Source of the DNA: an uncultured Clostridia bacterium
Lineage (GTDB): Bacteria > Bacillota > Clostridia > Lachnospirales > CAG-274
Assembly (NCBI GenBank): GCA_944384215.1
Contig: CALWSN010000036.1
Span: forward strand, 1 to 40,336
Reading direction: 5' to 3'
Length of the DNA: 40,336 nucleotides
Below are positions 18,559 to 24,033 of the stretch, piece after piece (position 1 is the stretch's first letter; the number at the start of each line of letters is the position of its first letter). Below the pieces are notes generated by a model, which worked only from the letters and a program-made list of their open reading frames with translations, had not been told where the DNA came from and did no database searches. A program made the translations under genes and the position numbers.

Positions 18559-18587
18559 TTGACGTTTAAATAATAAAATATTAAAAT
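18559..18587 (+). promoter_or_regulatory. Promoter of walRK
   Basis: TTGACG (18559-18564) and TAAAAT (18582-18587) are exactly 17 bp apart, 30 bp before the walR start. Confidence 0.6.
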
Positions 18588-18617
18588 AATATAAAGAAAA
18601 TGTTAGGAGGGGTTATA

Positions 18618-19316
18618 TTGTCTAGTAAAATTTTAGTGGTTGATGATGAACAAAGTATAATGAATATTATTGCTTTTAACCTTAAAAAAGAGGGTTATAA
18701 TGTTGTATGTGCTGAAGATGGCGAAATGGCTATAAAAGTTTTTGAAGAAGAAAAACCAGATTTGATACTTTTAGACATAATGATGCCAAAGATAGACGGA
18801 TATGGAGTTTGTAGAAGAATAAGAGATAAAAGTGATGTGCCTATTATTATGCTTACTGCTCGTGCAGATGAGGTAGACAAAGTTTTAGGCCTTGAAATAG
18901 GTGCAGATGACTATGTAACAAAACCTTTTAGCAACCGTGAGCTTATGGCACGTGTAAAGGCTAATCTTAGAAGAAAAATTTCTATAAAACAAGAAGAACA
19001 ACCAGAAAGTAATGATAATATAAGCGTTTTTGGTGAGCTTACAATAGATTTTGATAGATATGAAGTTTTTAAAAGAAATGAGCCTATAAATCTTACTATA
19101 AGAGAATTTGAGCTTTTAAAATTTTTAGCTCTTAAAAAAAATCAAATTTTTACAAGAGAAGCTTTATTGTCCCAAGTTTGGGGTTATGAATATTTTGGTG
19201 ATGTTAGAGCAGTTGATGTTACTATAAGAAGGCTTAGAGAAAAGATAGAAGATGATGCTAGCAAACCGAAGTTTATAATAACTAAAAGAGGGATTGGCTA
19301 TTATTTTATGTCATAG
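18618..19316 (+). CDS. walR: Response regulator WalR (YycF), OmpR/PhoB type
   Basis: DNA-binding half of the essential WalRK system that controls wall hydrolases in Firmicutes. The 232-residue protein has a receiver domain ([10 protein letters not shown], phosphorylated Asp in [10 protein letters not shown], switch [31 protein letters not shown]) and a winged-helix domain with [14 protein letters not shown]. Start: an ATG at 18600 lies ahead of the AGGAGG site; the TTG at 18618, right after it, gives the normal N-terminus. The name rests on close similarity to WalR and on the walK-yycH-yycI genes downstream. It likely binds TGTWAH direct repeats, two sets of which are in this window. Confidence 0.92.
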
Positions 19317-19331
19317 ATAAGGACAAGAGAG

Positions 19332-21149
19332 ATGAAGAGTGTACGTTTTAAATTGATTTTTATATATTTTATATTAGTTTTTATTGTTATGATAATAAGC
19401 GGTACTTTTATTATATATACAATACAAAAACAAGAAATAGCTAAAATAGAAGAAGAGCTTAAAAGTTTTTCTAAAGCTATAAAAGAACAAATTATTGACC
19501 AATATGAAGATTATAACGATTTTCAAACAGGCTTTACAGACCTTTTTATGAAAAGAGTTTTTACACAAAATATACAAGGTGCTATAATAGATAAAGATGG
19601 AAAAACTATTGCAGGTACTAATTTTTCAGAAACACAAGGACCTTATCAATATAAAAACTCTGTTATAATATCTGCTTTATCTGGAAAAGAAAATTTTGAA
19701 AAATCTAAAAAAAGCTTAGATGAAAATTCTGTTGTTAAAGAGTGGTTAAGCTATGGCTATCCTGTTTTAGATGATAACAATAATGTAGAATATGTTATAT
19801 ATGTTCAAATGGACGCAACTAATATAAATGATACATTAAAACAAACTACTAATACAATAGGTGTAGCTGTTATTATAGCTTTAGTTTTGGCAATAACTCT
19901 TGGTAGTATGTTTTCTAATACTATAACTGCACCTATATCACTTCTTACTAGAAAAGCTAATCTTTTAGCAAAAGGCCATCTTGAACAACATATAATAGTT
20001 AAAGGTGAAGATGAAATAGGTCAGCTTACAAGAAGCTTTAACCATATGGCTAGAGAGCTTAGAAAAACTGTTTCTGAAATGGAAAATGAAAACAACAAAC
20101 TAGAGATAGTTTTGCATAATATGACAGATGGGGTTGTAGCTTTTGATGAAATAGGTAGCCTTATACACGCTAACAAGGAATTTTATGAGCTTATGGGCTT
20201 AGATGAAGAAGAGCAATATAAAATAAATTTAGATTATTTTTTATATAAAATAAATTTGCCTAAAAATCAAATAAGGCTTAACAAAAATACTGAAATATTA
20301 ATAGATGAAGGTGGCAAATATATACAGGTTGTTCTTATACCTTATACAGGTAAAAATAATTTTATAGAAGGTATAATGATAGTTTTAAAAGATATTACAA
20401 AACAGAAAAAACTAGATGATATGCGAAAAGAATTTGTTGCTAATGTTTCTCACGAAATAAGAACACCTATAACTACTATAAAAAGCTATACAGAAACTCT
20501 TTTAGAAGGGGCTATAGATGAAAAAGAGCTTGCAATGGACTTTTTAAACACTATAAATGAAGCTGCTGATAGAATGAAGTTTTTAACAGATGACCTTTTA
20601 GAGCTTTCTCGTTTAGATGGTGGTAAAATTAGCTTTAATTTTAAATTGACAAATTTATATGATATAGTTGTAGGTTGTGTTAAACAAAATATTATTATAG
20701 CTAATAAAAAAAATCAACAAATAATATTACAAGAGCCTACTAATAAAAATATGGTTGTAATGGTTGATACTGGTAGGATAAACCAAGTTTTAAATAATAT
20801 TATATCAAATGCTATAAAATATAGCTATGAAGATACAAATATAAACATATTTATAGAAGAAAACCAAGAAAGCTTTATTGTTAATATAAAAGATAATGGC
20901 ATAGGTATACCTAAAGAAGATATAGGTAGAATATTTGAAAGGTTTTATCGTGTTGACAAAGCTAGAAGTAGGGCTATGGGTGGCAATGGGCTTGGTTTAT
21001 CTATTGCTAAAGAAATAATGGTTGAACACGGTGGTGATATAAAGGCTTATAGCAAGGTTGGAGAAGGGACAACTATGCAAGTAATTTTTAAAAAGTATAA
21101 TAACATAGAAAATACTTTAAAATTTAATTATGAAAACCAAAACTTTTAG
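19332..21149 (+). CDS. walK: Sensor histidine kinase WalK (YycG)
   Basis: A 605-residue membrane kinase paired with WalR. First membrane segment at about residues 7-29, an outside sensor domain of about 145 residues, second segment near 178-198, a HAMP linker (ITAPISLLTRKANLLAKGHLE), a PAS domain (IVLHNMTDGVVAFDEIGSLI), the histidine box FVANVSHEIRTPITTIKSY with phospho-acceptor H374, then the ATP-binding N, G1 and G2 boxes (NNIISNAIKYS, DNGIGIP, GNGLGLSIAKEI). This is the full WalK layout. It begins 15 bp after walR. Its activity should be restrained by YycH and YycI, encoded two and three genes later. Confidence 0.94.
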   Translation: MKSVRFKLIFIYFILVFIVMIISGTFIIYTIQKQEIAKIEEELKSFSKAIKEQIIDQYEDYNDFQTGFTDLFMKRVFTQNIQGAIIDKDGKTIAGTNFSETQGPYQYKNSVIISALSGKENFEKSKKSLDENSVVKEWLSYGYPVLDDNNNVEYVIYVQMDATNINDTLKQTTNTIGVAVIIALVLAITLGSMFSNTITAPISLLTRKANLLAKGHLEQHIIVKGEDEIGQLTRSFNHMARELRKTVSEMENENNKLEIVLHNMTDGVVAFDEIGSLIHANKEFYELMGLDEEEQYKINLDYFLYKINLPKNQIRLNKNTEILIDEGGKYIQVVLIPYTGKNNFIEGIMIVLKDITKQKKLDDMRKEFVANVSHEIRTPITTIKSYTETLLEGAIDEKELAMDFLNTINEAADRMKFLTDDLLELSRLDGGKISFNFKLTNLYDIVVGCVKQNIIIANKKNQQIILQEPTNKNMVVMVDTGRINQVLNNIISNAIKYSYEDTNINIFIEENQESFIVNIKDNGIGIPKEDIGRIFERFYRVDKARSRAMGGNGLGLSIAKEIMVEHGGDIKAYSKVGEGTTMQVIFKKYNNIENTLKFNYENQNF

Positions 21150-21215: not shown

Positions 21216-21270
21216 TGTAAATTAAAAGTAAGGCTATTGTAACACAATTGTAATATTAATGATATATAAT
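21216..21270 (+). promoter_or_regulatory. Tandem WalR-type operator with class II promoter
   Basis: Four hexamers lie in exact 11-bp steps: TGTAAA (21216), AGTAAG (21227), TGTAAC (21238) and TGTAAT (21249). The last two make a perfect TGTWAH-N5-TGTWAH WalR box; the second hexamer is degenerate. A TATAAT -10 box (21265-21270) begins 10 bp after the last hexamer, and there is no good -35, the geometry seen at PhoB-type activated promoters. It lies 42 bp before the secreted-protein gene inside the wal cluster. Confidence 0.65.
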
Positions 21271-21311
21271 ATTACTATGTAGTATTATATAATTTGGAAA
21301 GGAGGACTGTT

Positions 21312-21770
21312 ATGAAAAAATTAATCTTAACATTAGCTACTATCTTTCTTTTAATACTTTCTAATAGCATTTTTGCTTATGCAGCCTCTGTTTCTAATAG
21401 TGAGGTTAATAGCGGTTTTTCTATAACAGGTGGTCTAGATTTTTCTAAAGAAGCTAAATCTACTTTTGATAAAACTAGAACTATTACTGGTAAAGCACCT
21501 GAAGGCTCTACTGTTACTATTACTGTTTATGAAAAATTACTTGAAAAAGAAGAAGAATTAAAAGAAGTTGATAAATATACAATAGTTGTTGGAGCATCTG
21601 GATATTTTAGCCAAACAGTAAACCTTGTTGTTGGTGAAAATGTTATCGATATAAGTGTTAAAGATAAAAATAACAAACATTCTAATGTTTCAACAGCTAT
21701 TACACGCAAAAAAAGTGAAATAAAAAATGAACTTGAGCAAGCTATTATCTTACCAAGAACTAGAAAATAG
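21312..21770 (+). CDS. Small secreted Ig-like/beta-sandwich protein in the wal cluster
   Basis: A 152-residue exported protein. The signal peptide is clear (MKKLILTLATIF to AYAAS). The mature part has the pattern of a single bacterial Ig-like domain: TRTITGKAPEGSTVTITVYE, then GYFSQTVNLVVGENVIDISV, and a basic C-terminal tail ending PRTRK. No catalytic or anchor motif is seen. The ATG at 21312 follows AAAGGAGG; an ATG at 21294 lies ahead of that site. It sits between walK and yycH, with its own WalR-type operator just upstream, so it is probably made on WalR activation and may bind the wall or feed back on the sensor. I do not know a standard member of wal operons like this. Confidence 0.8.
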   Translation: MKKLILTLATIFLLILSNSIFAYAASVSNSEVNSGFSITGGLDFSKEAKSTFDKTRTITGKAPEGSTVTITVYEKLLEKEEELKEVDKYTIVVGASGYFSQTVNLVVGENVIDISVKDKNNKHSNVSTAITRKKSEIKNELEQAIILPRTRK

Positions 21771-21793: not shown

Positions 21794-23152
21794 ATGTATT
21801 TAAGCAAATGGAAAAATTTTATTATAACTTTTTTGATATTTTTAGCTATTTATCAGACTACTGGGCTATGGTTTGAAAATTTTTCAACCCATAGCTTTTT
21901 TTACTTAATAAAAAATAAGTCTGAAAATGCTAATATACAAAAAGATACTATTTATTTAACTGAAAGTATTTTAATAAATACTGGTAATAATAAATATATT
22001 AGAAAATATAACAATATATCAAATACAGATTATAAAAAAGTTTTTGATGAGGCTATATATTTAGCTATTAAAAATGGAGATTTTTCTTATATAGAACATT
22101 TTGATATAAATGAAGTTTTAAATAGTAGGTCCATTATTTATACTTATGATTTTAATATGAAAGGTGAAGATATGACTAAAATATTTAATATTAAAGCTAA
22201 TCATCTTTCTAAAATTAAAGAGTTTGATACTATAATAATTGTTCCTACATTAGATGAAAAATATAATATAAAAACTATATTTTTATCTTCTAAAACTTTA
22301 AATGCTTATGAGCTTAAAATATCTAAAGACATTTTAAGCCAGAATATATTTAATATTATAAATGATTTTAATAGCTTAGAGCCTAAAGAATTTTATTATA
22401 TATCAAGTGAAGAAAGCGGTATAACATTATTTAATAGTAACCAATTTTTGCCTAAGGCTAAAGATGAAACATTTAATGTAAATAAAATAATTGCTACTAA
22501 CCCTTTAGAGCAAGATGGTGGTATTTTATTATCTGAAAGTGAAAAATATGTAGATGTATTTTTTGATAACCCTATAACAAAATCTAGCTCTTTTATAAAT
22601 GACACATACACATATAATGATGAAGATGTTATTGTAAAATATTATCCTAATGGTGTTTTAGAATATGTAAAATATAAAAGTAATATTGGTATTAATACTC
22701 AAGAAAGCCCTTATAGCATAGCTGTAAAATTTTTAGCTAAAGATACAAATATAAAAAATGAATATTATTTAAAAGATTATAAAATAGAAGATAACAAAAC
22801 TATATTTTATTTTGATTATAAGATAAATAATTTTCCTATTACCATATCTGAAGAAAAAAAACAACTTACAGAAATGGATAGTATGATAGAAGTTACCGTA
22901 GAAGACAATAGGGTTTCTAAATATAAAAGATTAGTATATGATTTTACTTTAGAAGATGAATATGTTATAGCCCAAAAATCTTTTATAGAAGCAATAGATA
23001 GTTTTTTAGTAAATTCACAAAAAACAGATGCTAATATAGATGAAATGAAACTAATTTACAATTTTGATAATGTGGGAGAGCCTATTAATATAAACTGGCT
23101 TATAAAAGTACAAGACAATAACTATCTTGAAAGTGTAACATATGGAGGATAG
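21794..23152 (+). CDS. yycH: WalK regulator YycH
   Basis: A 452-residue membrane-anchored protein. One N-terminal membrane segment (about residues 9-25), then an outside part with the two-domain YycH layout. Family features are weak at the sequence level in Clostridia, but the anchor, the length and the position right before yycI behind walRK fit. In Bacillus YycH and YycI form a complex with the WalK membrane helices and lower kinase activity. It starts behind AAAGGTGAT, 23 bp after the secreted-protein gene, and ends 2 bp before yycI. The YycH-type dipeptide-like region NYLESVTYGG closes it. Confidence 0.82.
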   Translation: MYLSKWKNFIITFLIFLAIYQTTGLWFENFSTHSFFYLIKNKSENANIQKDTIYLTESILINTGNNKYIRKYNNISNTDYKKVFDEAIYLAIKNGDFSYIEHFDINEVLNSRSIIYTYDFNMKGEDMTKIFNIKANHLSKIKEFDTIIIVPTLDEKYNIKTIFLSSKTLNAYELKISKDILSQNIFNIINDFNSLEPKEFYYISSEESGITLFNSNQFLPKAKDETFNVNKIIATNPLEQDGGILLSESEKYVDVFFDNPITKSSSFINDTYTYNDEDVIVKYYPNGVLEYVKYKSNIGINTQESPYSIAVKFLAKDTNIKNEYYLKDYKIEDNKTIFYFDYKINNFPITISEEKKQLTEMDSMIEVTVEDNRVSKYKRLVYDFTLEDEYVIAQKSFIEAIDSFLVNSQKTDANIDEMKLIYNFDNVGEPININWLIKVQDNNYLESVTYGG

Positions 23153-23154
23153 AT

Positions 23155-24033
23155 ATGGATACAAAACTAGCCAAAAATTACACAATTATATTTTTATTAG
23201 TATTAAATTTAGTTTTATTTTTACTTAGTTTTTTATTAGAAGAAAAATATAAAATAAGCAAAGAACAGCAAAATACTATAATATCTTATTTAGAAAAAGA
23301 AAACATAAAAGTATATGCAGATATTCCTAAAAAATATGAGCCTATGGCACAAATTAGTATGAAAAAAACAAAACACGACGATTTAACTTTACAAAAAATA
23401 TTTTTTGATGATAATGATGACTTAATTAGAACAGAAAAATTTGAAGACACTATATTTAAGCAGGGTGAAAAAATTTTAAAAGTAAATAATTTATTTATAT
23501 ATTTTCAAGATTTAGAAAAAAAAGAAAATTTTATTTATAATAAAGAAAATTGCTTAAATATAGCAGAAGAATATAAAAAATCTATTGAAGATATATATGG
23601 AAAAATGCATTTAGACAGAATTGTTGAAGAACAAGATTATTTTTTAATATCTTATATACAAAAAATAGATGGATACAAAATATTTAATAGTACTTTAAAT
23701 ATTAAAGTTTTTAAAGACGGAGAAATAGATATATATTTTAACAACTATCAAAAGCCAGATATTATAAGTGAAAAAATAAATATTTATTCTGTTGATGAAG
23801 CACTATATACATTTTGTAAAGAAATAAGAAGCCTTATACCAGATAGAGAAATATATATAAGAGATATAGATTTAGGCTATTATTTAAAAATGGATAGTGA
23901 AAATATAACTTTTTCTTTTTTACCTTATTACAGATTTTATATAAAAGGAAATGAAACACCTTTTTATGTTAATGCTTATACAAACAGTTTTGAATATGAA
24001 ACAGTAGTAATTAATACTCAAGAAATTTTTTGA
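23155..24033 (+). CDS. yycI: WalK regulator YycI
   Basis: A 292-residue protein with an N-terminal membrane helix (about residues 9-27) and an outside domain. The start DTKLAKNYTIIFLLVLNLVLFLL matches the common YycI beginning, where a short positive tail leads into the helix that touches WalK. The later TLNIKVFKDGEIDIYFNNYQ and SVDEALYTFCKEI segments resemble the YycI/YycH fold. The start is 2 bp after yycH behind GGAGG. The usual next gene, yycJ (a beta-lactamase-fold nuclease), is not found here. Confidence 0.82.
   Translation: MDTKLAKNYTIIFLLVLNLVLFLLSFLLEEKYKISKEQQNTIISYLEKENIKVYADIPKKYEPMAQISMKKTKHDDLTLQKIFFDDNDDLIRTEKFEDTIFKQGEKILKVNNLFIYFQDLEKKENFIYNKENCLNIAEEYKKSIEDIYGKMHLDRIVEEQDYFLISYIQKIDGYKIFNSTLNIKVFKDGEIDIYFNNYQKPDIISEKINIYSVDEALYTFCKEIRSLIPDREIYIRDIDLGYYLKMDSENITFSFLPYYRFYIKGNETPFYVNAYTNSFEYETVVINTQEIF

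Follow-up and report, generated by a model that had tools for sequence, protein, structure and literature searches.

A conserved four-repeat array before ig-yycH-yycI in Clostridia as a probable WalR-activated promoter without a -35 element

An array of four WalR-type hexamers lying between walK and the gene that follows it raises three questions: which operon the array serves, which regulator binds it, and what such binding would do to the Wal system itself. Among the envelope control systems of Gram-positive bacteria, WalRK is the most widespread and often essential, and Clostridia include many gut bacteria. We analyzed the locus in a window of 40,336 nucleotides (contig C36 of a 1.9-Mb draft genome; 26.5% G+C) and compared it with its counterparts in related genomes. 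The reading that we consider probable, and in which we infer the binder, the activation, the loop and its sign, is that the array forms a WalR-activated, -35-less promoter of ig-yycH(walH)-yycI(walI) and closes a loop on WalK. What the comparison shows directly is the array itself, how exact its geometry is, how deeply it is conserved and that it goes with ig-yycH-yycI.

The gene order in the window is recU, a GH26-like gene, walR, walK, ig, a YycH-like gene, yycI and, after further genes, recD2; the genes and promoter elements of the wal cluster given below lie on the forward strand. An earlier, sequence-only reading had called this a wal cluster, and the protein families agree: the YycF response regulator walR (18600..19316) exceeded its NCBIfam cut-off (NF040534, 348.8 versus 340), and YycI (WalI; 23155..24033) exceeded that of Pfam (PF09648, 40.9 bits versus 29.7). 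The walR ATG at 18600 overlaps the gene's own ribosome-binding site (ATGTTAGGAGGGG), and the real start is probably the TTG at 18618. The WalK-type histidine kinase walK (19332..21149; HAMP, PAS, HisKA and HATPase) matched WalK as its best NCBIfam family with 467 bits, under the strict cut-off of 725.

The first gene behind the array, ig (21312..21770), encodes a small secreted protein with a signal peptide and one Ig-like beta-sandwich, the beta strands of its AF2 model spanning residues 37-132. Its orthologues were present in every same-family genome searched but one (G001), and 22 and 14 of 28 orthologues showed weak matches to Glucodextran_B and Big_6, respectively. A fold search with the model returned many generic beta-sandwiches and no informative relative, and the YycI and Ig profiles found no match among PDB sequences. 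The next gene (21794..23152) encodes a single-pass membrane protein of 452 aa with an N-terminal membrane segment, for which neither Pfam nor a PDB sequence profile gave a match. The AF2 model of this protein is poor (mean pLDDT 42); its residues 262-413 aligned to B. subtilis YycH (2fgt) with Z 7.3 over 108 residues, close to background, as was the alignment of the model to YycI (Z 6.3). We call the protein YycH (WalH)-like from its position, size and topology, together with the modest structural match, which the model gives for residues 262-413 only.

The array precedes ig, and the sequence-only reading had placed its hexamers correctly to the base: TGTAAA (21216..21221), AGTAAG (21227..21232), TGTAAC (21238..21243) and TGTAAT (21249..21254) follow each other in steps of 11 bp. 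Repeats 1, 3 and 4 are strict TGTWAH and repeat 2 is off consensus, while repeats 3 and 4 together make an exact TGTWAH-N5-TGTWAH WalR box. The TATAAT -10 box (21265..21270) begins, as had been claimed, 10 bp past the last hexamer, with 10 bases between 21254 and 21265. The absence of a -35 element also held up, and among 66 orthologous promoters the match to TTGACA at spacers of 16-18 was usually 0-2 of 6. From the sequence, transcription is predicted to start near A21277, which would put the repeats at about -61 (repeat 1 covering about -61 to -56), -50, -39 and -28 and the -10 box at -12 to -7; a ribosome-binding site, AGGAGGA, follows at 21300..21306. The walR promoter, TTGACG-N17-TAAAAT (18559..18587), differs from the array promoter in having a -35 and no WalR boxes, and WalR pairs were absent from 18 of 19 walR upstream regions. 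An exact scan of the window's own genome for TGTAAY-N5-TGTAAY-N9-11-TAYAMT matched the array site and nothing else, and the genome thus holds no second promoter with the same full design.

AT-rich DNA could produce such repeats without function, and a single pair is weak evidence, since TGTWAH-N5-TGTWAH with one mismatch occurs in the window at chance level (36 observed versus 33 expected). Exact pairs numbered two, at 21238 and 1440. Markov simulation of 300 windows (one strand each) gave four GTAA cores in 11-bp steps a single time and no four-core array with a -10 at 10 bp, compared with one in the real window. The statistics across genomes were built on profile searches and pattern searches.

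For the family of the window (f1), we identified the ig orthologues by protein search, in which the array was not used, and then read the upstream DNA. The array was kept at 28 of 30 same-family loci, the exceptions being a locus that starts near a contig end (L027) and a genome that has lost the array (G029). In all 28 promoters the -10 lies exactly 10 bp downstream of the array, and the sequence flanking the array carries near-zero information. Five loci from other families that were located via the protein alone (L114-L117 and L119) retain the array as well, and a sixth (L120) has the repeats with a less clear -10. Conservation before orthologues of the gene at 21312 was the test that the sequence-only reading had set for itself, and the phase proved to be kept far beyond close relatives.

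A sequence-only profile made from the 28 family promoters matched 158 of 295 genomes of the order at E <= 0.001. Of the matches fetched from other families, 38 of 40 lie directly before ig-yycH-yycI, mostly in the order walR-walK-[array]-ig-yycH-yycI. The -10 was at 10 bp in 38/38 promoters from nine other families, a count made partly circular by the 10-bp distance built into the profile; the gene context is free of this circularity. When array matches were compared with an independent yycH search, 108 of the 112 strong matches across the order were found on the same strand as yycH, 490-1250 bp ahead of the gene; three of the remaining four come from fragmented assemblies with the array and yycH on separate contigs, and one is a second match in its genome. 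In a sample of the class, 97 of 391 genomes matched the profile, and outside the order 25 of 27 fetched matches precede ig or yycH. Some genomes have ig-yycH-yycI without the array, namely G029 and others among the yycH genomes that lack a strong match. One genome from another family of the class (G606, L262) carries 11 copies of a four-repeat array, and the one copy examined is not before ig-yycH; these copies may represent a local expansion of the regulon or the site of another regulator.

Conservation differs among the repeats. Repeats 3 and 4 fit TGTWAH in 63 and 64 of the 66 promoters, respectively, and both do so, giving the exact TGTWAH-N5-TGTWAH, in 61. Repeat 2 reads [A/C/T]GTWA in 56/66 and fits TGTWAH in 3/66, and repeat 1 is the least conserved, with TGTWA, TTTAA or ATTAA in relatives. 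At three loci of genus g6 (L028, L031 and L032), a 5' leader of more than 100 nt with an apparent inverted repeat separates the array promoter from ig, and this long leader might carry further regulation. Taken as conserved phase, -10 distance and operon context, these observations rule out a chance origin: although one-mismatch pairs are at chance frequency in the window, the phase and the distance are exact across many families, with the same operon downstream, and we give practically no weight to a functionless product of AT-rich DNA.

The array could be a feature of the walRK intercistronic region or an element of the operon behind it. In several genera of the family, ig-yycH-yycI has become unlinked from walRK with the array still attached; in G012, for example, walR is on contig C4 and the ig-yycH-yycI operon on C16. 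Conversely, G001 (L112), from the same genus as the window, has lost both ig and the array, and its yycH starts 15 bp after walK, which makes this natural deletion a useful comparison. Because the array is kept when the operon leaves walRK and was lost together with ig in G001, we rejected the walRK intercistronic feature and conclude that the array is a promoter element of ig-yycH-yycI, with which it travels. The sequence-only reading had noticed neither this attachment nor the spread through Clostridia. The interval from walK to ig in the window showed no terminator, and some families have an array that overlaps the end of walK; for these reasons, read-through transcription from walRK probably occurs as well and may contribute to the expression of ig-yycH-yycI.

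The half-site and the spacing bear out the WalR-type half-sites in PhoB-like geometry that had been read from the letters, and WalR is the best candidate for the regulator that binds them. The DNA-binding domain of the window's WalR is nearest to VicR/YycF/WalR structures (aligned to 2d1v, 2hwv and 2zxj), and its recognition helix is nearly identical to that of known WalR/VicR and differs in the genome's other OmpR-type regulators. The WalR (YycF) boxes of B. subtilis and S. aureus, TGTWAH-N5-TGTWAH, resemble the array in their half-site, 11-bp step and tandem direct repeat, and they likewise combine a WalR-type regulator of near-identical recognition helix with envelope genes nearby; they differ in having two half-sites, whereas the array has four, a fixed 10 bp to the -10 and no -35, and sits on genes of WalK modulators.

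A genuine activator promoter whose main activator is another regulator of the OmpR/PhoB family, such as the Pho regulator or the C136 paralogue, is an unlikely alternative that has to be weighed against the same sequences. The genome has other regulators of OmpR type whose winged-helix domains are related (six matches in all, one of them partial), the architecture is that of a Pho promoter, and the half-sites of WalR and Pho are near reverse complements. Pho promoters as a family have 11-bp repeats about 10 bp before the -10, and those of E. coli PhoB and B. subtilis PhoP share with the array the direct repeats that replace the -35. They differ in the half-site, which in the array is TGTAAY and not TGTCA or TTHACA, and the array has no phosphate genes downstream. 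In six genomes we also inspected the promoters of pst: repeats of TTTACA type, and not of TGTAAY type, stand in 11-bp steps before pstS in four genomes of family f1 and one other, and in the sixth genome they are farther upstream. These repeats (L234-L239), of the form TTTACA-N5-TTTACA, look like Pho boxes and differ from the WalR-type array. The Pho boxes of the same genomes read TTTACA in the forward direction, whereas repeats 3-4 of the array end in C or T (sixth base in 130/132 cases). With this different half-site, and with ig-yycH-yycI rather than phosphate genes downstream, we rejected the identity of the array as a Pho box. The position of the array directly behind walRK in most families, its WalR consensus and the related sites at envelope genes speak against another main activator and for WalR.

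We surveyed such related sites across the genus and found 79 sites of TGTAAYN5TGTAAY compared with 29 of the reversed pattern. Recurrent sites lie before an operon of SLH and LysM-G5-M23 genes, large secreted proteins, an acyltransferase/GDSL pair and mreB, a list that is descriptive, since some sites of the same pattern fall inside unrelated genes. Hits in the second tier of the genus profile search (E 0.003-0.02), with shorter arrays, were taken as regulon hints only. The envelope genes resemble WalR regulons elsewhere, a circumstantial likeness that would fit WalR as the binder.

Several of these loci have features of their own. At L125 (5200-5290; also L055, L056, L058, L059 and L243), reversed WalR-type repeats follow a likely -10 and precede the start of an SLH-domain gene, which in L125 is followed by a LysM-G5-M23 peptidase gene; this layout would suit repression. 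A large secreted protein with copper amine oxidase N-terminal-type domains (MKRKIAxLLSAMMV...) has two WalR-type sites, about 107 and 280-360 bp upstream (L121, L122 and L245), an arrangement that recurs in five or more genomes of the genus. The region upstream of mreB (L124, G000:C26, 1800-2010) has three TGTAAY repeats in steps of 11 bp, and the mreB reading frame in this draft contig has an apparent shift near its start. A LytR-CpsA-Psr gene on the minus strand (start 1385) has the window's other exact site, 1440-1456, at 55-71 bp upstream, in reverse orientation to the gene.

PhoB-type activators use tandem 11-bp sites that replace the -35 and recruit RNA polymerase, and activation is therefore the natural reading of the array. 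In the mechanism that we propose, two WalR~P dimers would bind head to tail on the four half-sites spaced by 11 bp. The proximal and best conserved dimer would lie over the -35 position and, as PhoB does, recruit sigma-A RNA polymerase to the -10 located 10 bp downstream, while walRK would have a standard sigma-A promoter that lacks WalR boxes. The suggestion of the sequence-only reading that two WalR dimers on one face drive the promoter fits this arrangement of sites; the control, as that reading proposed, might also be dose-sensitive.

The geometry also allows the opposite sign. WalR sites that activate in S. aureus are located ahead of the -35, and those that lie between the -35 and -10, or downstream of them, repress (PMC10746227). 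The proximal pair of the array, repeats 3-4, overlaps and flanks the -35 position, unlike the activating S. aureus sites, and we counted this against activation. WalR might accordingly bind as a repressor, with yycHI expressed at low WalR output, a reading that we consider quite improbable. The 66 orthologous promoters have no -35 to block, and a -10-only promoter with an invariant 10 bp to the last repeat looks dependent on an activator. A geometry of repression is seen elsewhere in the genus, at the SLH operon, where reversed sites follow immediately on the -10. Under activation by WalR, the output of the regulator would set the amount of the WalK modulators and of the secreted Ig-like protein, forming a feedback loop.

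The sign of this loop would depend on the effect of WalHI on WalK, on which the reports differ. In B. subtilis, WalH and WalI inhibit WalK, to which they bind (PMC7299342). Reports on S. aureus describe them as activators (PMC5013275, PMC7355866) or as accessory (PMC4801191). Inhibition of WalK by WalHI, as in B. subtilis, would make the loop negative, and activation, as reported for S. aureus, would make it positive.

The locus shares the order walR, walK, walH, walI with the walRKHI(J) operon of Bacilli. The S. aureus operon differs in that walK and walH overlap and transcription has its only start upstream of walR; no WalR site was found in the walRKHI promoter region, and the operon is reported not to be autoregulated (PMC4801191). 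The wal operon of B. subtilis is described as not autoregulated (PMC7299342), and that of C. difficile, described as walA-walR-walK-truA2, is likewise reported not to be autoregulated (PMC9210968). The principle of feedback onto WalK is already known from the negative WalKR-SpdC loop of S. aureus, where WalKR activates a gene and the membrane protein that it encodes inhibits WalK (PMC5854430). SpdC is an unlinked Abi protein, whereas the predicted targets here are walH, walI and a gene for a secreted Ig-like protein. What is new is that walHI have a promoter of such design across Clostridia, together with an additional gene, for a secreted Ig-like protein, ahead of them; no earlier description was found in the open-access literature searched.

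A broader proposition, for and against which we see the case as evenly balanced, is an ancestral Wal feedback circuit common to the Clostridia, with WalR as the direct and strong driver of WalH, WalI and an undescribed extracytoplasmic partner, the Ig-like protein. If this is true, the set point of wall-hydrolase control in Clostridia would be adjusted through how much of the WalK-associated complex is present. For B. subtilis, Dobihal et al. (PMC7299342) considered it unlikely that the set point is altered via the level of the WalK-WalH-WalI complex, arguing from the lack of autoregulation. With walHI under a class-wide WalR-box promoter, the level of the complex would become a regulated variable in Clostridia. 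The array offers a precise and easily mutated element, and ig a candidate gene for a third modulator. As read from the promoter, the locus suggests that the cell-wall regulator controls the adjusters of its own kinase, a feedback that the wal operons of the model species are reported to lack.
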